IMG/VR virus record: IMGVR_UViG_3300021962_000272
Span: 1-37,879 of that record
Direction: 5' to 3' (one strand)
Length of the DNA stretch: 37,879 nt
From: a virus
Of this stretch, positions 1,401 to 33,396 are shown in pieces. The notes beneath the pieces are model-generated. The model was not told the DNA's origin, did no database searches, and saw only the letters and a list, made by a program, of their open reading frames with translations. Both the position numbers and the translations under genes were made by a program. The first letter of the stretch is position 1; the number at the start of each line of letters is the position of its first letter.

Positions 1401-1931
1401 TTAGATCTGCTTAGTGATATGATCAACAATCAAGGTTGTATCTTCTGGAGTCATGTGATCAAACTTTTCTGTAAGAAACATGAGAACCATATTTGTCATG
1501 ATGTTGTTGACCTTGCTTTCGCGCCCAGCAAGCCATGTTTCATTCTGGTTGCTGCCCCTCTTAGCATATCTTATATTACGCTCATTCTTCGTCGTTCGCA
1601 AGTAAATAATGCTCAGGTCATACTTTTCGTTGCAGTGTTCTAGGAAAGATGAGGTGAACAGTCTGTCGCCTTCGTAAATTACGATGGCATCATTAGGCAA
1701 TGTAGCCAAGAACTTGATAGCCTCTGGCTGAACAGACATACTCATACGATCTGTGCCAGCAAACGTTTCACCTTCTTCATATTTGCCTAGAACATAAACG
1801 TTGTCTTTCTGATGATAAGGAACCAGCTTGAACTCATTGAACTTAGCTTCTGGTTTCAGCTTCTCGATTAGCTTCCACATAAGAGTAGTCTTACCAGATC
1901 CTGGCTCACCACCGATAGCAATCACTTTCAT
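1401..1931 (-). CDS. P-loop nucleotide kinase, candidate modified-base kinase
   Basis: 176 aa with a clear Walker A (GGEPGSGKTT, residues 7-16) at the extreme N-terminus and an IVYEGDRLF strand near 85-93 that can serve as Walker B. The size fits a small P-loop kinase. It overlaps the upstream helical-protein gene by the ATGA tetranucleotide and ends a block with a TET/JBP oxygenase and a methyltransferase-like gene. P-loop kinases that phosphorylate 5-hydroxymethyl pyrimidines within DNA are known from phages with hypermodified thymine, which makes that role attractive here. This is inference from context; a deoxynucleotide or other small-molecule kinase is the alternative. Confidence 0.7.
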   Translation of the reverse strand: MKVIAIGGEPGSGKTTLMWKLIEKLKPEAKFNEFKLVPYHQKDNVYVLGKYEEGETFAGTDRMSMSVQPEAIKFLATLPNDAIVIYEGDRLFTSSFLEHCNEKYDLSIIYLRTTKNERNIRYAKRGSNQNETWLAGRESKVNNIMTNMVLMFLTEKFDHMTPEDTTLIVDHITKQI

Positions 1932-3070
1932 AGGAATCCTCTCAGTCCATAATTATTGAAACCGTTCTTGAAGCAGCTCCACTCGTTATCCATCATGATA
2001 ACTTCACCTGTTAGTCTATAGTGATTCTGTTTCACTTTAGATAAACCAGGATCGTCTGGATTATGCTCTAGTCGTAGATGTTCAGGTAGACACTCTTTTC
2101 TCATGTCCCAGAACAGCTGGAACTGATTACCCCATTCTGATTCTGCATATTTGATTCTGTTATAGAACATATCCATATAGACGTTTGGATATCTACGATC
2201 TGGTCTATGCCAAGACTTGTAGCAGCAGAGGGTTGATTCTAGTGTGAAGTAGCTCACGTCTGGGTGATCAATGCGAGCAGCTGCTTCTGCTAGAAGAATT
2301 CTACCTTCTTCCTTCAACCACTCTAAGATGTCTGGAGAATACTTTACGTCATCCTTCCACCAGTCTAGATCATCACGCCCAAGAACTTTACATAGACCGT
2401 TCCTGTGCGAGCGCGAACCACTGATATCATCTAGGAAGAGATTGTCGCAGTCGATATTGACGCCCTGTATTCTCAGATACTCTAGATATGAGAAAGCTGA
2501 TAAGCGACCAAACGACATGAAGTTGTTGCGAACGAATGACCATGCGTTGCGGAAGTTCTGATATTTATCAGTCGTATTACAGATAGAATCATACAATGCT
2601 TTCTGTGAGCCGTATGTATCTACGACTTTCTTATAGGATGCAACGCATTGAGGAAAACCAGTCTTGCCTATCTTGAAATACTTACGATCAGTATCCCAAC
2701 CAGAACCTGCTTTGAACTTCTGGTGATTATCATTCCACCAAGAATCTAGCTCATCTACATTGAGATCTTTGACCGATGGGAACTTCTTGAATATGAAATA
2801 GCTCGTGACGATATTCTGCGAGCAACCATTGATGAAAGCAATCCAGAGCTTATCTTCTTCGTTCATGTTCATGTGATTCGATAACCACGGGAACGCAAAG
2901 TAAACAGCACCAGGATGCGAACGATACTTCAAATGGTATTCATAGAAACGAAGGAAAACTTCTCTTCGGTATATTGGGCTTCTGAAATCAAAACCAGCTT
3001 GCAGATCACTGACTTCAGGTTGATTGGTTAGGTCTGACCAGCGACCTATTTTATCAGGTGAATGCGTCAA
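1928..3070 (-). CDS. helical protein resembling DNA-hypermodification transferase/kinase-helical family
   Basis: 380 aa, rich in Trp, Tyr and Phe, apparently all-helical, with conserved-looking blocks YRSHPGAVYFAF (50-61), EEDKLWIAFINGCSQN (71-86) and the Asp/Trp-rich LGRDDLDWWKDDVKY. The organisation recalls helical proteins found with TET/JBP oxygenases and P-loop kinases in phage hypermodification clusters (amino acid:DNA transferase, alpha-glutamyl/putrescinyl thymine pyrophosphorylase, or the helical partner domain of 5-hmdU DNA kinase). I cannot tell these apart by eye. The only plausible start is TTG at 3070 after an AAGGA; it overlaps the upstream gene by 17 nt and the kinase by 4 nt, so the block is translationally coupled. 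Confidence 0.5.
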   Translation of the reverse strand: MTHSPDKIGRWSDLTNQPEVSDLQAGFDFRSPIYRREVFLRFYEYHLKYRSHPGAVYFAFPWLSNHMNMNEEDKLWIAFINGCSQNIVTSYFIFKKFPSVKDLNVDELDSWWNDNHQKFKAGSGWDTDRKYFKIGKTGFPQCVASYKKVVDTYGSQKALYDSICNTTDKYQNFRNAWSFVRNNFMSFGRLSAFSYLEYLRIQGVNIDCDNLFLDDISGSRSHRNGLCKVLGRDDLDWWKDDVKYSPDILEWLKEEGRILLAEAAARIDHPDVSYFTLESTLCCYKSWHRPDRRYPNVYMDMFYNRIKYAESEWGNQFQLFWDMRKECLPEHLRLEHNPDDPGLSKVKQNHYRLTGEVIMMDNEWSCFKNGFNNYGLRGFL

Positions 3071-3821
3071 GAGGACCAGTATCCTTTTCTAAGAAATAGA
3101 AACCATTAGCTGTAGTTGCTAGATCAAAATGCTTGAACTCAGTTTCATGTAGCCCAGGAACGGCTACGAAATAGACTGCGTTCTTAGCTCTAAATGCAGC
3201 TTTGATTATACTATATCTATGATTAGAATACAACCACTTTGAGTAAGCCTTCACATAATCATACTTGTCTGTGAGTTGCTCACCGAAGATCTTGGAATAC
3301 TTTTCGCCATGAACAGCGATAGGATAAGTGACGGATGTGTCAGTCCACGCGACTAGTTTTGGCTTTGATTGAAACGCTTTGTTGAAACAATCGTTCCATT
3401 TCGTAGTGATCTGTAGAACGCTGGAGTTAGGAAGGTCTAAGAACTTCATGTCACTATTGTCGTCAAGCAGCATAGCTTCCTTTGCGTCTTCGAGTCTAGA
3501 TTCAAGACCCATAGAAGAAAGCTGCTTGACGCAATCTTGATCAATTTCACTAGCTACATGGCGATCAACATTGTATAGACCACGAATGATCGTGCTCATG
3601 ATCCCAACGCCAGCGAAATACTCACGAACATTATAACGTTCGCTGGCGTCGAGAACTCCTTCCAACATCCACTTAGTTGCCCAGCACTTAGCAGCAACTA
3701 GAGGTAGATGTTGAGAAACATAATGAATGTATGATCTAGAATGTAAGTCTGAGTCACTTTCGTTTTTGAGTTCGATATTGAACGGAAGTTTCCACTGCTC
3801 ACACAAGAGTGCTGTTTTCAT
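3054..3821 (-). CDS. Rossmann methyltransferase-like protein, possibly a base-modifying enzyme
   Basis: 255 aa from the ATG at 3821 (MKTALLCEQW); an ATG at 3860 would add 13 residues but increases the overlap with the TET/JBP gene from 23 to 62 nt. The core shows a C5-methyltransferase-like motif I (REYFAGVGIMST, near 66-77 of this start) and an acidic motif II (ASEIDQDCV). The Pro-Cys catalytic dipeptide of DNA cytosine-C5 methyltransferases is not visible where expected; there the sequence reads LVAWTDTSVTYP. It may be a diverged C5 methylase that prepares substrate for the neighbouring oxygenase, or a catalytically different relative. Coupled by overlap to genes on both sides. Confidence 0.55.
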   Translation of the reverse strand: MKTALLCEQWKLPFNIELKNESDSDLHSRSYIHYVSQHLPLVAAKCWATKWMLEGVLDASERYNVREYFAGVGIMSTIIRGLYNVDRHVASEIDQDCVKQLSSMGLESRLEDAKEAMLLDDNSDMKFLDLPNSSVLQITTKWNDCFNKAFQSKPKLVAWTDTSVTYPIAVHGEKYSKIFGEQLTDKYDYVKAYSKWLYSNHRYSIIKAAFRAKNAVYFVAVPGLHETEFKHFDLATTANGFYFLEKDTGPLDAFT

Positions 3822-5205
3822 TGCCAAGACCCAGCTTACCCAAAACTTCTTCAGCTTCATCAAGCAAGCCGTTGTTACCTAGATAACGACCCCACTCTTC
3901 ACCGTCCCACATTCCTGGAGAGACGCCATTCCAACCTTCATGCCATAGCTCATGCTCTTTGTTGTTTCTGCGCATGTAAACGAAGTTCTTACGAGCTTCT
4001 TCATACTTCTTAGAGCCGCATTCAAGCATAGACTCACGGAAATACATCACGACTGACATACGCTCGAAACCTTCTTCGTAGTTGAAGGCAGGAGAGTTGC
4101 TATGGATACGATGAGCATTCATCATGATCATATCCCCTGCACGAATATCAGCTGCTACGCGGAACTCAGGGAAGCACAGATAGAAACCATCATAGTCTTT
4201 GCCGTTATCCAAAACGAGAAGATTGCTGAAACCTCTAGGATTTTCATGCGTTTCCCATGACTCACAGAGGTCACCAACGTCACGATGCGCTGCTGTGCGG
4301 AAGTCGCGATTGATAGTCAGTGTTGTGTAAGGAGTCTTACCAATCTGCCAATCAGGACCAAGTTTGTTCATAGCTTCCATCTGACCAGCGAAACGAACTG
4401 GCAAGTTTTCTTCATAGACTTTAGCAGCTGCTTCGAACAGAGGAATAGCACCCTCATAGAGCTGATGATTGCTAGCAGTCCAACCAGTTTCGCGACAGAA
4501 CGGAATACGCGGATAACGATCCATGAATCCACCGACACCAGAACGAACACCGTTGGCATAAGTTGTATCTGATACTAGATCGTTGAACACATGTTCAGCA
4601 GCCATCTTACGTTCTTGAGGATTCTTATCCTTGACGGATTCATACCAGTCTTCGAAGTTGAAGTTCTTAGTCTTTTCTACGATCCAGATGGCACCACTCT
4701 TGATACGCTCTTTGATATGCCAAACGTCTTTACCAGTGCCTCTATTCTTGAGCGGAACGTTTGGATTAGAATCGTAGATATACTGCAACTGATCCTCTCC
4801 AGTGATAACGTCTGGAGGAGAAAGAGCCATCATATATTCAAGAACTGCTTTCTGACGTTCTGTAACCCAACGACGAGAACCAAGACCATCAGGAAGCTGT
4901 TGGAATTCAGTTTCACGATCCATGCCTGCTGCAATACCACGATTGTCAGACATAACAGCGCCAGAGCGCAGAGCAGTATAAGCTGCGTCTGTCATTTCTT
5001 TCGAGAACACGCCTTTGCGGAACTTACACAGAATGTTCTTTTCAGAATGCTCTTCACCCATCATAATCTGAAGAGGAGTGAGCGGTTCATAAACGTCTGC
5101 GTCTTCAGTAAGAACCAGATCATAGCAGTCATGATCGAGGAACTTACCCAAAACGTGGTCAATCTTGTTGCGATTAGAATGTTCTAGATAGATCTTTTTT
5201 ACCAT
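3799..5205 (-). CDS. TET/JBP-type 2OG-Fe(II) DNA dioxygenase
   Basis: 468 aa. The C-terminal half carries the TET/JBP signature: TLTINRDFRTAAHRDVGDL (residues 296-314, with R303, H307 and D309), a LVLDNGKDYDGFYLCFPE strand pair, VAADIRAGDMIMMNAHRIHSN (third metal ligand probably H368), and R382 for 2-oxoglutarate. In trypanosome JBP this fold hydroxylates thymine in DNA, in TET 5-methylcytosine; phage members hydroxylate pyrimidines as the first step of hypermodification. The N-terminal 180 residues are unassigned. The start has a strong AGGAGGG site. It leads the kinase/helical/methyltransferase block, and a sigma70-type promoter lies about 670 nt upstream inside another gene. Which base it oxidises cannot be read from sequence. 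Confidence 0.85.
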   Translation of the reverse strand: MVKKIYLEHSNRNKIDHVLGKFLDHDCYDLVLTEDADVYEPLTPLQIMMGEEHSEKNILCKFRKGVFSKEMTDAAYTALRSGAVMSDNRGIAAGMDRETEFQQLPDGLGSRRWVTERQKAVLEYMMALSPPDVITGEDQLQYIYDSNPNVPLKNRGTGKDVWHIKERIKSGAIWIVEKTKNFNFEDWYESVKDKNPQERKMAAEHVFNDLVSDTTYANGVRSGVGGFMDRYPRIPFCRETGWTASNHQLYEGAIPLFEAAAKVYEENLPVRFAGQMEAMNKLGPDWQIGKTPYTTLTINRDFRTAAHRDVGDLCESWETHENPRGFSNLLVLDNGKDYDGFYLCFPEFRVAADIRAGDMIMMNAHRIHSNSPAFNYEEGFERMSVVMYFRESMLECGSKKYEEARKNFVYMRRNNKEHELWHEGWNGVSPGMWDGEEWGRYLGNNGLLDEAEEVLGKLGLGNENSTLV

Positions 5206-5231: not shown

Positions 5232-5810
5232 CTATGTATGCTTTTGGAGATTTTCATAAGTGTTATAAAACACATTTTCCCCATAAATCTTAGTCACATT
5301 TTCGATACTAGGGAAAATAAAAATGAAGTCAACTTCTGGATTCTTACGAACCAACCATTGCAGATAGTTCACACGACCAGGATTGTCAGCTGCGCTCGCA
5401 CGTGTGGAAGGACCGTAGTTTGGAGTTCCGTCATACACGTTAGAAAGAAGCTGCTTGTCGTCCTGAATCAGAAAGTCAAAACCAAGACAGATCAGCTGAT
5501 TGTATTCCATCTTGATAGCTTCGCGCATGGCATTGATACCAGCGTTGCTACGAGGACGTCCAATGTTACACTCAGCTGGTTCCCAACGTTCGTCCATAGG
5601 CGGAACGATGAAACGCTTAGAGGGGAAGTCGCTTCCTTCTATTTCTGTAATAATACCGTCATCAATAGCAACGAGGAAGTCAGGAATAGAGTTATCAAAG
5701 TAATCACGATAAAGCGCATTACATCCATAGATTGTTCCATATGGTTTGAGTTTAGTCAATTCAAAGCCTTTACGGCTTGTTCCGTTGCCAATGATAAACG
5801 CAGTGTTCAT
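5232..5810 (-). CDS. GNGTSR-type Rossmann-like protein (DUF115/MptE-like?)
   Basis: 192 aa. The N-terminus AFIIGNGTSRKGFEL (4-18) followed by GTIYGCNALYRDY and PDFLVAIDDGI is a recurrent signature of phage proteins related to DUF115/6-hydroxymethylpterin diphosphokinase-like and some glycosyltransferase-like folds. Nucleotide or sugar-nucleotide binding is plausible but unproven. The start overlaps the upstream gene by ATGA. The stop is TAG, rare here; amber readthrough would add only about ten residues. It lies 26 nt upstream of the TET/JBP gene and probably shares its transcript. Confidence 0.6.
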   Translation of the reverse strand: MNTAFIIGNGTSRKGFELTKLKPYGTIYGCNALYRDYFDNSIPDFLVAIDDGIITEIEGSDFPSKRFIVPPMDERWEPAECNIGRPRSNAGINAMREAIKMEYNQLICLGFDFLIQDDKQLLSNVYDGTPNYGPSTRASAADNPGRVNYLQWLVRKNPEVDFIFIFPSIENVTKIYGENVFYNTYENLQKHT

Positions 5811-18469: not shown

Positions 18470-18543
18470 TGGTGACCCTAGTGGGACTTGAACCCACATT
18501 CAGCGTTTTAGAGACGCCTGCATAGCCATCATGCTCTAGGATC
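18470..18543 (-). tRNA. amber suppressor tRNA, anticodon CTA
   Basis: 74 nt cloverleaf with encoded CCA: acceptor GATCCTA/TAGGGTC, D stem GCAT/ATGC, anticodon stem GGCGT/ACGCT around loop CTCTAAA, so the anticodon is CUA and pairs with UAG. 4-nt variable loop, T arm GTGGG TTCAAGT CCCAC, A73. It shares the CTCNAAA loop, 4-nt variable loop and GTGGG T stem with the phage tRNA-Trp, and like it lacks U8, so a Trp-tRNA origin by one anticodon change (CCA to CTA) is plausible. The charged amino acid cannot be told. A late-type TATAAATA box lies just upstream. Confidence 0.88.
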
Positions 18544-24564: not shown

Positions 24565-25962
24565 TTAGTAGGCTAACTTTAGCAAATCGACGATTTCAGG
24601 GAAGGTCGCTTTCCAGTCGGTTCCGCGAATCTTATCCAGTCCTTCCATGTATCGAACAAATGAGTTCATATGCTGCTTCGCTTGCTCGTCGTCCACCAGA
24701 TCAAAATTGTTCTTCAAATAACCAGCGACGTGCGTCTTATGGAAATGTGGAAGGAAGTTAGACCCATCGTAATCGTTGATCACCTTCTCTTTGATCTTGC
24801 GAGGCAGATATGCCATATCGACAGCTTTAGGTGAACGAAGAATGCGAATGAAATATCTATCGTATCCCATCGGCGCGAACGTTTCATACATTCTCATCGG
24901 AGCATACATCGAGTAGATACCGATGCAAGTCGTGATCGTGTCGATCTTCTTATCCAGACCATAGTCCTTCAGCAAACTCATATTCTTGAGTAGAGTGTCG
25001 AACTTCAGCGGATGACGGATAAGCTCATACTGCGGACCAACGTCATCAGTCGAGATACGCAAAATGATATCCTTGAACTTCGACAGACGCTCAAGAATCT
25101 TTTTATTCATGACGCTGAGATTCGTATCGTATTCGAGAACGATATTCTTAGCGTATCCACCGTCGATCAACTTATCCAAGAACACATCGTGCTGCGGCTG
25201 AAGGAATGGTTCACCACCTGTGATATAGATGTGCTGGAGATGGGGCGCGAGCTCGTCAAGCTGTTTCCACCAACGTGGATCATCGCGCCACTCAGGCATA
25301 TCGGATGAGAACGTATGACCGCCTGTAACCTTAGGCGTTTTGATGATGTTATACTTTTTCAGTCCGCTGTTGAAATATGGAGTGCCGAATACTCTTTCAT
25401 GATCTTCATACCACAGAGTTGAGTAGAGTGGTTCACACATAATGCACTTTGCATTGCATAGATTGCTGAATCGAATATCCAGCGAGATAGGCATAATATC
25501 TTTCATGGATCCAGTGTTTGGATCAATCAACCATTCTGTCGCGTTTTCTGGAATTGCAGAACCAATCATCGGTTGACCACCAACTCGATTGCGCTCTGGA
25601 TTATAGCGATCAGCACCTTCGACGTTTTGATCGAACGTGCGAATCACACGCAATGAAGTAGAACGAACACCCTGACGCTTTGCTGCGTCATCACGATCCC
25701 AGCATACTTTACAAGCGATATGGCGCTCGCCTTTAGCTTGTGCTGCGCGGATCTCTTTATGGAACACTGAGTTCATGGCATCCTTGATAGAATGCGTGAG
25801 AACGTTCATCGTATTACCTTCTTCGTCGAACGCAATACCGTGTGAGTCACCGCCACTAGGGAGCGTATGACCAGTGAAGCAACAGATCTTGAAGTCGCCT
25901 GATGGAAGAATCAGGATCGACGACCAAGGCATAGTGCAGAATGTATCTTTAGTGAAGTTCAT
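24565..25962 (-). CDS. twitch/SPASM-type radical SAM protein
   Basis: 465 aa. The N-terminus has a SPASM/twitch-like motif before the core (FCTMPWSSILILPSGDFKIC with Cys 9, 27, 28, then HIACKVCWDRD with Cys 84 and 87), and the radical SAM core has SNLCNAKCIMCEP (Cys 169, 173, 176) and YITGGEPFLQ. Proteins of this order occur in T4-like marine phages and are related to enzymes that modify peptides or assemble cofactors. It ends an operon with a DUF2061 membrane protein and a PP-loop ATPase, which suggests one pathway. Start overlaps the DUF2061 gene by 14 nt. Substrate unknown. Confidence 0.85.
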   Translation of the reverse strand: MNFTKDTFCTMPWSSILILPSGDFKICCFTGHTLPSGGDSHGIAFDEEGNTMNVLTHSIKDAMNSVFHKEIRAAQAKGERHIACKVCWDRDDAAKRQGVRSTSLRVIRTFDQNVEGADRYNPERNRVGGQPMIGSAIPENATEWLIDPNTGSMKDIMPISLDIRFSNLCNAKCIMCEPLYSTLWYEDHERVFGTPYFNSGLKKYNIIKTPKVTGGHTFSSDMPEWRDDPRWWKQLDELAPHLQHIYITGGEPFLQPQHDVFLDKLIDGGYAKNIVLEYDTNLSVMNKKILERLSKFKDIILRISTDDVGPQYELIRHPLKFDTLLKNMSLLKDYGLDKKIDTITTCIGIYSMYAPMRMYETFAPMGYDRYFIRILRSPKAVDMAYLPRKIKEKVINDYDGSNFLPHFHKTHVAGYLKNNFDLVDDEQAKQHMNSFVRYMEGLDKIRGTDWKATFPEIVDLLKLAY

Positions 25963-26386
25963 GTTTACCCCATTTGATTAGATTCCATGCGCGCTCGTGA
26001 AGGTAATATACTGCGATGTTCAAGAACGTTGCTACAGTTAGAAACGCAAGAGCAGCTTTCCATGATCCAGTCGTCAGGAACGGAATCATGAAGTTATTGA
26101 AAGTGATGATTGCACGCCAAGTAACGGACTTAGAAATAGTGCGAGGATGACCGTCAACAAAGAACAGATTATCTTTCGGTTTACGATTCCACTGAAACCA
26201 GTTCCATATGCGCTCATGTCCCCAGAAAAGAAACATGTTGATCAGCACCGCGAAACTCGCGATAGTGACGCCAGTCATCCATGATCCAGTCACAATGAAT
26301 CCATTCAGGATATGGCTCAGCGTAAAGCAAACGCGAACCGTTAGAGTTTTAGCAACTGACCTTGCATGTGATTCAGAATACATCAT
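25949..26386 (-). CDS. membrane protein with two DUF2061-like repeats
   Basis: 145 aa with a visible internal duplication: residues 10-64 (VAKTLTVRVCFTLSHILNGF...ERIWNWFQW) and 82-140 (ISKSVTWRAIITFNNFMIPF...ERAWNLIKW). Each copy has two hydrophobic segments and ends in the E-R-x-W motif of DUF2061, so four membrane helices in total. DUF2061 proteins are small membrane proteins of unknown function, mainly in alphaproteobacteria. Coupled by overlap to the genes on both sides. Confidence 0.78.
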   Translation of the reverse strand: MMYSESHARSVAKTLTVRVCFTLSHILNGFIVTGSWMTGVTIASFAVLINMFLFWGHERIWNWFQWNRKPKDNLFFVDGHPRTISKSVTWRAIITFNNFMIPFLTTGSWKAALAFLTVATFLNIAVYYLHERAWNLIKWGKHELH

Positions 26387-27510
26387 TCAATCCAATAGTT
26401 CGGGCTATAGTGAGGAGTAATGTTCCTACGGCTAGTAGAGTTTGTTGGATCTACTTTAGCAAAGTAGGCGTTCGTAATATCTATATATCGTTTCGTATCG
26501 TCCAGATTGCTCGTAAGGAACCATTTATCGCGTGCGCTGTATGTAAACGAAGCAGTCTTACCATTACAGAAAATATCGTTAGACCACTTTGGATACAGAA
26601 TGCTCTTGACATATGGATCACGCAAGTGCATATTGAAACGATTAGAGATACCGTTCGGTTGATATCCTCCATCTACGATTGGTTCAAATAAACGAGAATC
26701 GTCACAATGCTTAATGAAGTTATTGAGGACGTGTGCTTGCTTTACTGGTAGTAGAGGAAAGTCTGGAGTCCAATAGAACAGTTCGTCATACCATCCACGA
26801 TAGTAGTTTCGCTGAACATGAGGACCGACACAGTTATCAATGTTATCAGTGAACCTGAAGTAGTGTTTGCCGTTGAAGTTGATAAGCGAAGGTTTCTCTT
26901 TACCCCAAACGAAACACAGCTTCTTTCCTGACGCGATTATGTTCTTATAATCTTCGATCTTTTCGCGGAACAAATTTCTAGCAGGGTTGTTAGGTGAAAA
27001 GTGAAAGTTGACGTTGTATTCGAAGTCTAGCTTCCATGTGTCGAAAAGATCAATGCAGTGCTGACTGATATCAATGATACGAAACTTGAACTCATGTCCA
27101 GCGTCTTGTAGCTTCTTTATATCTGGAAGAACAACGTTCGTGATTTCAGCGTTGTAATGATTCTGATAGTCGCCTGTGGATTCATAGTTCCAAGTTGTGG
27201 CTATTTCATCAATCTTGAGACCAGCGTCAATCCAGGCAAGAAGTAGATTGTGACTATCAGAACCGCCAGAATACCATAATACGACATAATCATACGCATC
27301 GCGGATCTGTCTTGCTCGTTGCTTATACATTTCCCAGAGGTCTGTCTCTGGTTCTTTCTTCCAGTCAATTTTACTGAAGACGTCATTATTGAAATCCCAT
27401 TGAACGGGAATGTTCGTAGCACTAGACCACTCTACTGCTTCAAACTTGCTGTAAGTAGTTCTTTCGCCTACTCTATAGAAACCGAACTTATCAGGACTAA
27501 ACGTGATCAT
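26383..27510 (-). CDS. PP-loop ATP pyrophosphatase-like protein
   Basis: 375 aa. YVVLWYSGGSDSHNLLLAW (76-94) holds the N-type PP-loop SGGSDS, used by asparagine synthetase, QueC and tRNA-thiolation enzymes to adenylate a substrate. A 75-residue N-terminal extension and a 280-residue C-terminal region rich in aromatic residues do not match those families well, so the substrate is open. Together with the radical SAM and membrane genes downstream it looks like part of a small biosynthetic or modification system. Confidence 0.75.
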   Translation of the reverse strand: MITFSPDKFGFYRVGERTTYSKFEAVEWSSATNIPVQWDFNNDVFSKIDWKKEPETDLWEMYKQRARQIRDAYDYVVLWYSGGSDSHNLLLAWIDAGLKIDEIATTWNYESTGDYQNHYNAEITNVVLPDIKKLQDAGHEFKFRIIDISQHCIDLFDTWKLDFEYNVNFHFSPNNPARNLFREKIEDYKNIIASGKKLCFVWGKEKPSLINFNGKHYFRFTDNIDNCVGPHVQRNYYRGWYDELFYWTPDFPLLPVKQAHVLNNFIKHCDDSRLFEPIVDGGYQPNGISNRFNMHLRDPYVKSILYPKWSNDIFCNGKTASFTYSARDKWFLTSNLDDTKRYIDITNAYFAKVDPTNSTSRRNITPHYSPNYWIE

Positions 27511-27593: not shown

Positions 27594-27712
27594 TAACAAA
27601 TGAAACTCATTGTTATATAGTTCAAAAAAATAGCTGGACCGAATGCCCACCAGAGCAACAGTCCAGCTATTAGATAAAGTAGAGCCGCAATTATGTATGC
27701 GGCTCTGATCAT
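27593..27712 (-). CDS. tiny membrane protein downstream of the porin
   Basis: 39 aa (MIRAAYIIAALLYLIAGLLL at the N-terminus), almost wholly hydrophobic, one or two membrane segments. Its ATG shares the A of the porin stop (TGATG), so it would be translated by coupling. The stop is TAG, whose last base is the first base of tRNA-Leu. The region also forms two hairpins that look like a terminator, so expression may be limited. Confidence 0.5.
   Translation of the reverse strand: MIRAAYIIAALLYLIAGLLLWWAFGPAIFLNYITMSFIC
27624..27670 (-). terminator. rho-independent terminator after the porin
   Basis: Perfect 10-bp ATAGCTGGAC/GTCCAGCTAT stem with a T run on the minus strand. A second 9-bp hairpin AGAGCCGCA/TGCGGCTCT (27681-27706) lies just before it. 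Confidence 0.65.
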
Positions 27713-29082
27713 CAGAAGCGACGTTCTGCGCGGAGACGCATCGTCCAGTTGTTATCTGTTTCGCTCTTAACAATGTTTGTTGAAGAAGCGAGAGTATAAC
27801 GAACGTCCTGCTTTACGCTTGAGTAGATACCTTCAACACCAAGCTCGAAGTTTGGTGTAGGAATCCAGGCGAAGTTTGAACCAACTGACCAAACAGTCGA
27901 ATCACCAAAGCCCTTCTTACCATCCCACACCAGAGCCTTAGCTGATTCTGGAGCAGTTGTCTGACCGTATGAACCAAATGCATTGATACGATACTTGTCA
28001 GTCAACCAGTGCTGATAAAGAGCAGCAGCGTTCCATGACGTTACTGTTTCAAGACCAGTTGAGTAAGCAACGATTGAAGGATTGTTCATAACCCAACCGT
28101 TGACTTCACGACGCCAGTTAGCCATCTTGTTAGATGTATAAGCTGTAGTGTATTCAGTCATACCGTCAGCATAAGCACCTGTCAACCAAAGAGCATTGCT
28201 CTTATGACCAGTGAATGGTGTATTGATCTTTACACCAGCGCCAGCTGCCCAAACGTTCGTCGACTCGTTATAAGCTGCACCAGTTGCATCAACAACCTGT
28301 GCTTGACGACCAGCACCCATAACCTGAACCTGACCCCAAGGCTGATCCCAACGGATATTACCTACGAGATTGATGTTCTTTTCATTCTGGGGAGCATAAT
28401 AAGCAGCAGAAGCATTGACTGCATCAACTGGAGCAATGGCTGTATCAGTAGCATCCTGAATAGCAACCGTTGCGCTCAGACCACCACCGAGGATAGCTGT
28501 ATAAGCAAGCTGCTTAGGATTGATAATGAATGACGACCAATGTTGAGCCGCATAGATTGCGGAAGGCATGAACGAGAAGTTATCACGAGCAGCACCAGCT
28601 GTTACGCCAGCGAAGCGAATGAAAGCATACTCGATAACAGGCGTTGTATCAGTTCCTGACTGAGTAGCGCCAGTTGGTTGTGCTACGTCAGCAAGAGCGC
28701 CTGAACGACGACCGAAACGAATACCCATAGCACTTTGAACAGTGCCGTAATCTGTTGGTGTGCGAGCATCGAGTTCGATACGAGCACGTGTTTCCCAACC
28801 GACTGTATTCTGACCAGCAGCTGCCTTATCAACAGCGCGAGCACCAGCAGTTACCTTATAGGAATCACCGGCAGGAACGAACGCTACGTCTTGACGCAGC
28901 ATACCACCTACCTTCAGGCAGGAATCTGTTCCTGGAATATAAAAGAAACCGCGACCATAAGCATCACAAACCTTTACATAGTTTGCTGGTGCTTGCGGCT
29001 GCGCCTTTCCTGAAGGCAGATCGACGGCACCAGCGAGACTGGTAGTCGCCAGAAGTGCCAACGCAGAGAGTGTATATTTCAT
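27712..29082 (-). CDS. Rhizobiales-type outer-membrane porin (Porin_2)
   Basis: 456 aa. Signal peptide MKYTLSALALLATTSLAGA followed by VDLPSGKAQ, then VKVCDAYGRGFFYIPGTDSC, which is the N-terminal hallmark of alphaproteobacterial Porin_2 (Brucella Omp2-like) proteins with its conserved Cys pair, and a barrel ending in MRLRAERRF with the terminal Phe needed for outer-membrane assembly. Length is in the family range. Strong AAGGAG before the ATG. Such porins are host genes; a complete, well-preserved copy in a phage suggests selection, for example receptor masking, envelope permeability or nutrient uptake. Preceded by tRNA-Gly and a strong promoter at 29282. Confidence 0.9.
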   Translation of the reverse strand: MKYTLSALALLATTSLAGAVDLPSGKAQPQAPANYVKVCDAYGRGFFYIPGTDSCLKVGGMLRQDVAFVPAGDSYKVTAGARAVDKAAAGQNTVGWETRARIELDARTPTDYGTVQSAMGIRFGRRSGALADVAQPTGATQSGTDTTPVIEYAFIRFAGVTAGAARDNFSFMPSAIYAAQHWSSFIINPKQLAYTAILGGGLSATVAIQDATDTAIAPVDAVNASAAYYAPQNEKNINLVGNIRWDQPWGQVQVMGAGRQAQVVDATGAAYNESTNVWAAGAGVKINTPFTGHKSNALWLTGAYADGMTEYTTAYTSNKMANWRREVNGWVMNNPSIVAYSTGLETVTSWNAAALYQHWLTDKYRINAFGSYGQTTAPESAKALVWDGKKGFGDSTVWSVGSNFAWIPTPNFELGVEGIYSSVKQDVRYTLASSTNIVKSETDNNWTMRLRAERRF

Positions 29083-31958: not shown

Positions 31959-32687
31959 TTATCGTCCAATGATGCTATAGGAACCGAACGTATCATTATG
32001 TAGATTAGGAGTCCATCCATTCAACACAGCTTCAGCTCTCGTATCATGCCAGAGCTTCACCAAATCCTGACGCGGATGCTCGCGACCTTCACCAGTGAAC
32101 CAAGCAGGCTTCCACGGTTGTGTAGCCATTTCAGTATAGTGCAGATGCCAGATATCGTCAATGGTGCGACCATCACCGTCATGACAGTTCCAGCGCGGAT
32201 CAAGATCGAGGACATGATCGCTTCCGCTAAACATATTGATGTATCTGTGATGCGCGTCTGGATTAGGTTTCATTCTTGAAACAGGTGAAAGTAGATTACC
32301 CATCAGTTCGCAGTCAAAGAGGATAACACAAAACTCATGACCTCCAAAACGAGCGCCACGGCGAGCAGCAAGAGGCTTACCTTGCATATCAATGCAATAC
32401 AGCTCAGCAATATCCTTGAGATTGAGTTGGTCCACATCCATGTAAATGGCGCGACCATGAAATCCACACGCCTCTGGAATCGCCCAACGGAATCCGCTAA
32501 AAGGCGTCGACCAGCGTTGAGTCTGCCAACCACCCCATATACTAGACTCATCCCGTGACTGACGCATCCAAGTGATATCGAGTGGAAGAGTTGTATTCTT
32601 GCGGAGCGTATATTCGAGCACCATTTCTGCTTCAGCGTCTTCATTGTTCGCAGAAGTTCCTACAAAGATGCGGATAGGCTCAATCAT
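31959..32687 (-). CDS. GT8-like glycosyltransferase
   Basis: 242 aa. IRIFVGTSANNEDAE at the start and IYMDVDQLNLKDIAELY (about 79-95, DxD motif) followed by ARRGARFGGHEFCVILFDC match family-8-like transferases. Conserved histidines late in the sequence (IWHLHYTEM) are in the usual place. Overlaps the Bax-inhibitor gene by 8 nt; an internal promoter lies upstream at 32945. Confidence 0.75.
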   Translation of the reverse strand: MIEPIRIFVGTSANNEDAEAEMVLEYTLRKNTTLPLDITWMRQSRDESSIWGGWQTQRWSTPFSGFRWAIPEACGFHGRAIYMDVDQLNLKDIAELYCIDMQGKPLAARRGARFGGHEFCVILFDCELMGNLLSPVSRMKPNPDAHHRYINMFSGSDHVLDLDPRWNCHDGDGRTIDDIWHLHYTEMATQPWKPAWFTGEGREHPRQDLVKLWHDTRAEAVLNGWTPNLHNDTFGSYSIIGR

Positions 32688-33396
32688 TTTTTCTATCTCC
32701 GATTAGTTGGAGCAAGCTCACAAAGATATTGATGAAGTCGAGATAAAGCTGAAGAGCACCATAGATACCTGCTTTCTCACGTTCATCTTCTGTCGTGAAG
32801 TCATAAGTTGTTTTGAGTTGCTGAGTATCATAAGCTGTTAGACCAGTAAAGATAAGAACAGAGATACAGCTAATGACAAAGGCTAAAATCGAACTCTGAA
32901 GAAACAGATTTACGAGCCCAGCGATAACAAGACCAATGACTCCCATTATAAGGAATGAACCGAAGGTTGTCAAGTCTTTTTTTGTAGTATAGCCATAGAG
33001 CGAAGCAGCGCCAAATGTGGCTGCGGTAATGAAGAATACCTGAGCAATACTACCGAGCTTGAAAATCATAAAGATAGAACTTAGGCTAAGTCCCATCGCT
33101 GCGGCAAACACACCCATCGCAATCTGAGCCTGTCTAACTGTTATCTTATCAAAGACAAAAGGAATACCGAAAGACAAAACAACAGGAAGGAAAATTGCAA
33201 CCCACTTGAACGGTGTTCCCCAGATACTAGCCATAAGTTCTGGGCTCATCGAGATACCAAGCGAAACGAGACCGCTGATAGCTAATGCTAATGTCATATG
33301 ATTATAGACACCAAGCATAAACTGACGCAGACCTTCGTCATAAGCGATTTGATCTGCGCGTGTGATTACTACATTATCACTAGGAATGTAACCCAT
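32680..33396 (-). CDS. Bax inhibitor-1/YccA-family membrane protein
   Basis: 238 aa with about seven membrane helices and the family signatures: YNHMTLALAISGLVSLGIS at the N-terminus, ASLYGYTTKKDLTTFGSFL, and the C-terminal FTGLTAYDTQQLK...GALQLYLDFINIFVSLLQL with the Asp residues used for Ca2+ leak. BI-1 proteins act as membrane channels and, in bacteria, interact with membrane proteases. As a phage gene it may protect the membrane or regulate lysis. SD AGGAG, TAATG overlap with the methyltransferase gene. Confidence 0.9.
   Translation of the reverse strand: MGYIPSDNVVITRADQIAYDEGLRQFMLGVYNHMTLALAISGLVSLGISMSPELMASIWGTPFKWVAIFLPVVLSFGIPFVFDKITVRQAQIAMGVFAAAMGLSLSSIFMIFKLGSIAQVFFITAATFGAASLYGYTTKKDLTTFGSFLIMGVIGLVIAGLVNLFLQSSILAFVISCISVLIFTGLTAYDTQQLKTTYDFTTEDEREKAGIYGALQLYLDFINIFVSLLQLIGDRKND
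32945..32973 (-). promoter_or_regulatory. sigma70-type promoter inside the Bax-inhibitor gene
   Basis: Minus strand TTGACA, 17 bp, TATAAT, both consensus. Would drive the glycosyltransferase genes downstream. Confidence 0.75.

Follow-up and report, generated by a model that had tools for sequence, protein, structure and literature searches.

The window analysed here is a 37,879-base IMG/VR fragment, part of a larger phage genome, which carries on its minus strand four consecutive genes in the order TET, MTL, ADDT and kinase. The first is predicted to encode a TET/JBP 2-oxoglutarate/Fe(II) dioxygenase of 468 aa (TET, 3799..5205) and is followed by genes for a 255-aa protein with a predicted class I SAM-methyltransferase fold (MTL, 3054..3821), a putative 380-aa amino acid:DNA transferase of aGPT-PPlase clade 2 (ADDT, 1928..3070), and a 176-aa P-loop kinase (1401..1931). 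They form a single overlapping operon under strong purifying selection: each neighbouring pair overlaps by 4-23 nt, and dN/dS against L010 and L012 is 0.02-0.12 for all four genes (0.023 for TET against L010). The start of MTL, an ATG at position 3821, agrees with the starts of its relatives. A possible accessory gene of 192 aa (5232..5810, minus strand), restricted to the window's own lineage, lies directly upstream of TET; it adjoins TET in L051-L059 regardless of the cassette found downstream, and the AlphaFold2 model of its product is unusable (pLDDT 43.8).

The arrangement recurs widely among viral contigs. MTL was found in 46 of them, a count that rests on exact peptide seeds taken from MTL and therefore misses remote members. 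Wherever the contig leaves room, ADDT directly follows MTL (42/42) and the kinase directly follows ADDT (40/40), while TET lies upstream of MTL in 42 of the 44 contigs with room, the two exceptions, L079 and L080, being a single lineage. Together, the 46 recurrent loci and the low dN/dS values rule out chance as an explanation of the block. An earlier note, made from the sequence alone, had claimed four overlapping genes at this locus, and all four are indeed present, on the minus strand, recurrent and selected. The cassette looks as if it had been exchanged downstream of TET, because ADDT (72-73% identity), the kinase (61-65%) and MTL (52-53%) are close to their counterparts in “freshwater” phages of the L014-L030 type (a term that is a reading from a separate lineage and not a description of samples), whereas TET is distant (37-40%).

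The TET protein exceeds the Pfam cut-off for PF12851 (53.7 bits against 34.9; 6.3e-17 in a second, independent search) and matches phrog_24024 at 8.9e-101. An alignment of 22 homologues shows no variation at the iron ligands, namely the HxD motif (H307, D309) and H368, or at R382, which binds 2OG; the predicted activity of the enzyme is hydroxylation of a DNA pyrimidine at its 5-methyl group. The residue three positions after the HxD aspartate (D312 in the window) was considered as a guide to base choice and rejected, as D, N and S vary there independently of the downstream cassette. ADDT is likewise over the cut-off of its family (PF18724, E 1.9e-20, 74 bits against 26.2), matches phrog_3271 at 1.2e-70, is ~40% identical to mycobacteriophage homologues over 91% of the query, and is predicted to load an amino acid onto a hydroxymethyl base of DNA once that base carries a phosphate. 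The kinase, recognised by its position after ADDT, by PF18751 (Ploopntkinase3; 3.8e-12, 46.6 bits against 27) and by the Walker A motif GEPGSGKT, would phosphorylate such a hydroxymethyl base; PF18748 and PF18723, the models named HMUDK, were not among the best 25, the ones listed, of 34 Pfam families. The dioxygenase with all metal and 2OG ligands and the P-loop kinase of the earlier note are both borne out, and its helical protein, likened to those of alpha-glutamyl/putrescinyl-thymine pathways, can be placed more sharply as a PF18724 amino acid:DNA transferase.

Natural fusions of a PLP enzyme with ADDT (L034, 6835-9003) and of ADDT with the kinase (L041, 7986-9485) support a single pathway. 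Public phage records use quite different names for these proteins: TET homologues appear as SNF2 DNA repair protein or queuine tRNA-ribosyltransferase, ADDT as DNA glycosylase, and the kinase as terminase small subunit or adenylate kinase.

MTL belongs to no Pfam family, has only a chance-level match in PHROG, and its profiles retrieved nothing but chance kinase matches in a sequence search of the PDB. Its AlphaFold2 model (pLDDT 89.1, pTM 0.87) has class I methyltransferase topology, and Foldseek returned 824 PDB matches at E <= 1e-3, the 50 listed being nearly all methyltransferases. TM values normalised by the query of ~0.38-0.52 among the PDB matches listed suggest that MTL is without a close structural relative in that database; the best matches among viral structure models are two phage methyltransferase-like proteins (TM 0.80 and 0.72). 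An alignment of 20 members revealed more than 40 invariant residues, many near the predicted SAM site, among them the GxG of motif I, D129-x-P131-x-S133-S134 and W159-T-D-T-S163, and an acidic residue follows strand 2. By fold and SAM-binding motifs MTL is a predicted class I SAM-methyltransferase. The earlier description of a methyltransferase-like protein lacking the Pro-Cys of C5-methyltransferases was confirmed, since D-x-P-x-S-S occupies the motif IV position in 20/20 members; none of the 20 matches PF00145.

Nine of the 20 members have a weak match (best E 3e-4) to PF00398, the RrnaAD family of KsgA/Dim1 adenine N6-dimethylases, which is a hint of N-methylation by MTL and nothing more. 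MTL has in common with these enzymes the class I fold and an [ND]-x-P-like motif IV, motif IV of KsgA being [ND]-x-P, but its similarity lies below any membership level and no aromatic residue follows the motif IV proline. Outside the viral contigs, MTL was absent among 53 pattern matches in ~85,000 bacterial and archaeal genomes, a pattern-seeded search in which remote copies may be missed, and from cultured phages (50,697 phage records, one chance-level match). As far as found, MTL appears to be a phage-only family without described relatives; we found no report of it in the literature, with an earlier mention possible in the primary hypermodification papers (Iyer 2013, Lee 2018/2022, Burke 2021).

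The genomic context of MTL offers some indication of its role. On its upstream side ADDT has MTL as neighbour at 54 loci, a PLP fold-type enzyme at eight, and TET itself at six, counts in which some contigs were entered twice and in which L034, one of the six, has its PLP domain fused to ADDT. A protein query, used instead of PF00291, which gave no match even in contigs with the PLP enzyme, detected the PLP protein in G006, G009 and phage Montesquieu (W02), and not in the MTL contigs G000, G001, G002, G005 and G008. MTL and the PLP enzyme are mutually exclusive in this slot, and we read them as alternative tailoring enzymes. Since L023 and L031 carry neither, tailoring seems optional and MTL not essential to the pathway. 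In L080, one of the two TET-less contigs, MTL is found together with HMUDK_hel (PF18723, 2.1e-43), ADDT (4.2e-16), kinases and a thymidylate-synthase-like protein, a block that is by its gene families a predicted uracil-based 5hmdU pathway. Because MTL occurs in these TET-less contigs, which represent one lineage, it appears to follow ADDT and the amino-acid branch and not to make the substrate of TET, and so it probably tailors the attached group.

We propose, at a probability of about 0.62, that the operon hypermodifies a pyrimidine, most likely thymine, through TET, the kinase, ADDT and MTL. The four genes very likely serve to attach a bulky amino-acid group to a base in DNA, and the oxidise-phosphorylate-attach type of DNA-base hypermodification block suggested in the earlier note is well supported by the family assignments, the ligands and the conserved gene order. 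As we infer the chemistry, the phage's own DNA would be modified at a pyrimidine after replication. TET would hydroxylate the base, most likely thymine, at its 5-methyl group to give 5-hydroxymethyluracil, the P-loop kinase would phosphorylate the hydroxyl in DNA and thereby create a leaving group, and ADDT would exchange the phosphate for an amino acid, presumably linked through its amine. In known phages a 5hmdU DNA kinase first phosphorylates the 5hmdU of the DNA, and alkylamine transferases then act on it (PMC6449724; PMC7653180). In a fourth step, MTL, with its SAM-dependent methyltransferase fold and its place in the slot of the PLP enzyme, would alter the attached amino acid; our first guess is N-methylation, the second O-methylation of the carboxylate. 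The bulky product may shield phage DNA from host nucleases.

As to the base, thymine is the rather likely choice, favoured because MTL and ADDT occur in the uracil-type context of L080 and because no C5-methyltransferase was found in G002 (a 173-kb contig with TET, MTL, ADDT and kinase) or in the complete phages Prince and Cr30. None is present among the annotated ORFs of the window, itself a fragment, and the same is true of a thymidylate-synthase-like hydroxymethylase; the thymidylate-synthase-like family PF00303 is absent from G002 and Prince and present in the MTL relative G001.

The alternative that survives best, possible but on balance unlikely, places the modification on cytosine: a C5-methyltransferase encoded elsewhere in the phage would produce 5mC, TET would convert it to 5hmC, and the kinase and ADDT would attach the amino acid. 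The base could be 5mC because near-sister TETs accompany a C5-methyltransferase. The TETs of G003 and G015 share 80% and 73% identity, respectively, with the window TET, and both sister phages have an intact canonical C5-methyltransferase and no ADDT. The Melnitz kinase keeps similar company, as this phage has a C5-methyltransferase, TET and a PF18751-type kinase in one block. Furthermore, in the sister contigs L051 and L057 the corresponding slot behind TET is taken by sugar genes, GalE-like and TAGT, and the window covers just part of its genome. Against this, ADDT was found in 0/13 contigs with that C5-methyltransferase (in a search run without its own positive control), the C5-methyltransferase occurs without detectable TET in G017 (155 kb), it is missing from the MTL-ADDT contig G002 and the ADDT phages Prince and Cr30, and a uracil-type pathway likewise contains both ADDT and MTL. 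Were cytosine the base, the product might be one not previously described: TET would turn 5mC into 5hmC, the kinase and ADDT would furnish this cytosine with an amino acid, and MTL would methylate the group so attached. We regard this outcome as rather improbable. In the cultured marine phage Melnitz-3 (L157, 1451-5531), the C5-methyltransferase, TET, a 427-aa protein and the kinase are adjacent, and the methylase is the only one of the four block genes named in its record.

It is doubtful that MTL is a catalytically dead relative of C5-methyltransferases, serving only to flip bases or to target TET to DNA sites. Its motif I region does resemble these enzymes (FAGxG, ExD) while the Pro-Cys is missing, and hhalign, with which MTL was compared to C5 enzymes, to KsgA and to two phage methyltransferases, gave no decisive match to any of them and a weak local one to the C5 enzymes, confined to motifs I-III. 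The match to KsgA, however, is about equally weak, and PF00398 is hit by nine of the 20 members and PF00145 by none. The occurrence of MTL without TET in L079 and L080 also speaks against this reading, and the concentration of invariant residues at the predicted SAM site looks enzyme-like.

A SpeD-like gene (PF02675) lies ~5 kb, and a GT4-type gene (PF13692/PF00534) ~25 kb, from the block. The SpeD-like gene could suggest that MTL transfers a larger group from SAM or a SAM derivative, such as decarboxylated SAM, a reading we hold to be very unlikely: SpeD is present in G000, G002 and G003, the last of which has no ADDT, and is absent from G001, which is TET-less and has both MTL and ADDT. The earlier proposal that SpeD supplies a substrate is not supported, as its presence does not track with the cassette, and SpeD and radical SAM genes were rejected as pathway members because neither tracks with MTL. 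Least probable of all is an operon acting on small molecules, RNA or protein, since DNA is the substrate by which the ADDT, HMUDK and TET families are defined and the same genes turn up together in unrelated phages, even if each of the folds of TET, the kinase and MTL also has relatives that do not work on DNA and activity on DNA is a prediction.

Several other genes of the window may be recorded here. Positions 24565-27510 hold a radical SAM/SPASM protein with two neighbours, a small membrane protein and a protein of 375 aa that has a PP-loop-like SGGSDS motif and belongs to no Pfam family. Among 26 tRNA genes, one predicted by ARAGORN at 18470-18543 has the anticodon CUA, of the amber suppressor type. 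An outer-membrane porin of the Porin_2 family (27712-29082, 1.6e-45) suggests an alphaproteobacterial host, and a membrane protein of the Bax1-I family is encoded at 32680-33396 (7.2e-56).

MTL, a phage-only family with a SAM-methyltransferase fold, would be a candidate new class among the sculptors of amino acids on phage DNA. Should it methylate the attached amino acid, at N or at O, DNA would contain a base that bears a methylated amino acid, a chemistry useful for labelling and for understanding escape from restriction. Prince and Cr30 are in culture and carry the core module, so that the base and the amino acid are testable in them.

The proposed pathway has counterparts in several known systems. 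Burke et al. (2021, cited in PMC10273834) are said to have described a cytosine hypermodification system of phage TET, C5-methyltransferase and TAGT. The phage TET is a shared element and the sister contig L051 has a TAGT (PF20691) after TET, but the window itself shows neither C5-methyltransferase nor TAGT, with MTL, ADDT and kinase in their stead. A close likeness is to the module of Rhodococcus phage Tonitrus, in which a block of parB-like, tet-like, aGPT-PPlase2 and 5-hmU DNA kinase genes was proposed as a thymidine-hypermodification system (PMC11955845). As in the window, a TET-like dioxygenase, aGPT-PPlase2/ADDT and a P-loop kinase share one block in Tonitrus and in the cultured mycobacteriophage Prince, and TET, ADDT and kinase are also found in Caulobacter phage Cr30. 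The combination, put forward in the earlier note as possibly unreported, had thus already been predicted: the TET, ADDT and kinase core is of a known predicted kind, and MTL is the new part of the cassette. Prince, whose TET matches PF12851 below the cut-off (26.1 bits), has no MTL and begins its block with a ParB gene, whereas the window has MTL and no ParB beside TET. In Microbacterium phage Margaery (L159, 1-2161), ParB, TET and kinase genes are present with no ADDT in between.

The scheme predicted for the window is also that of phages ViI, M6 and phiW-14, in which a hydroxymethyl base is phosphorylated in DNA before transfer of an amine or amino acid and tailoring. The tailoring enzymes of these phages are not known to include a methyltransferase. 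Their thymidylate-synthase-like enzyme produces 5hmdU at the nucleotide level, ahead of incorporation, whereas in the window TET would make it in DNA; hydroxymethyl bases made by TET and by a synthase could in this way feed one and the same amino-acid branch.
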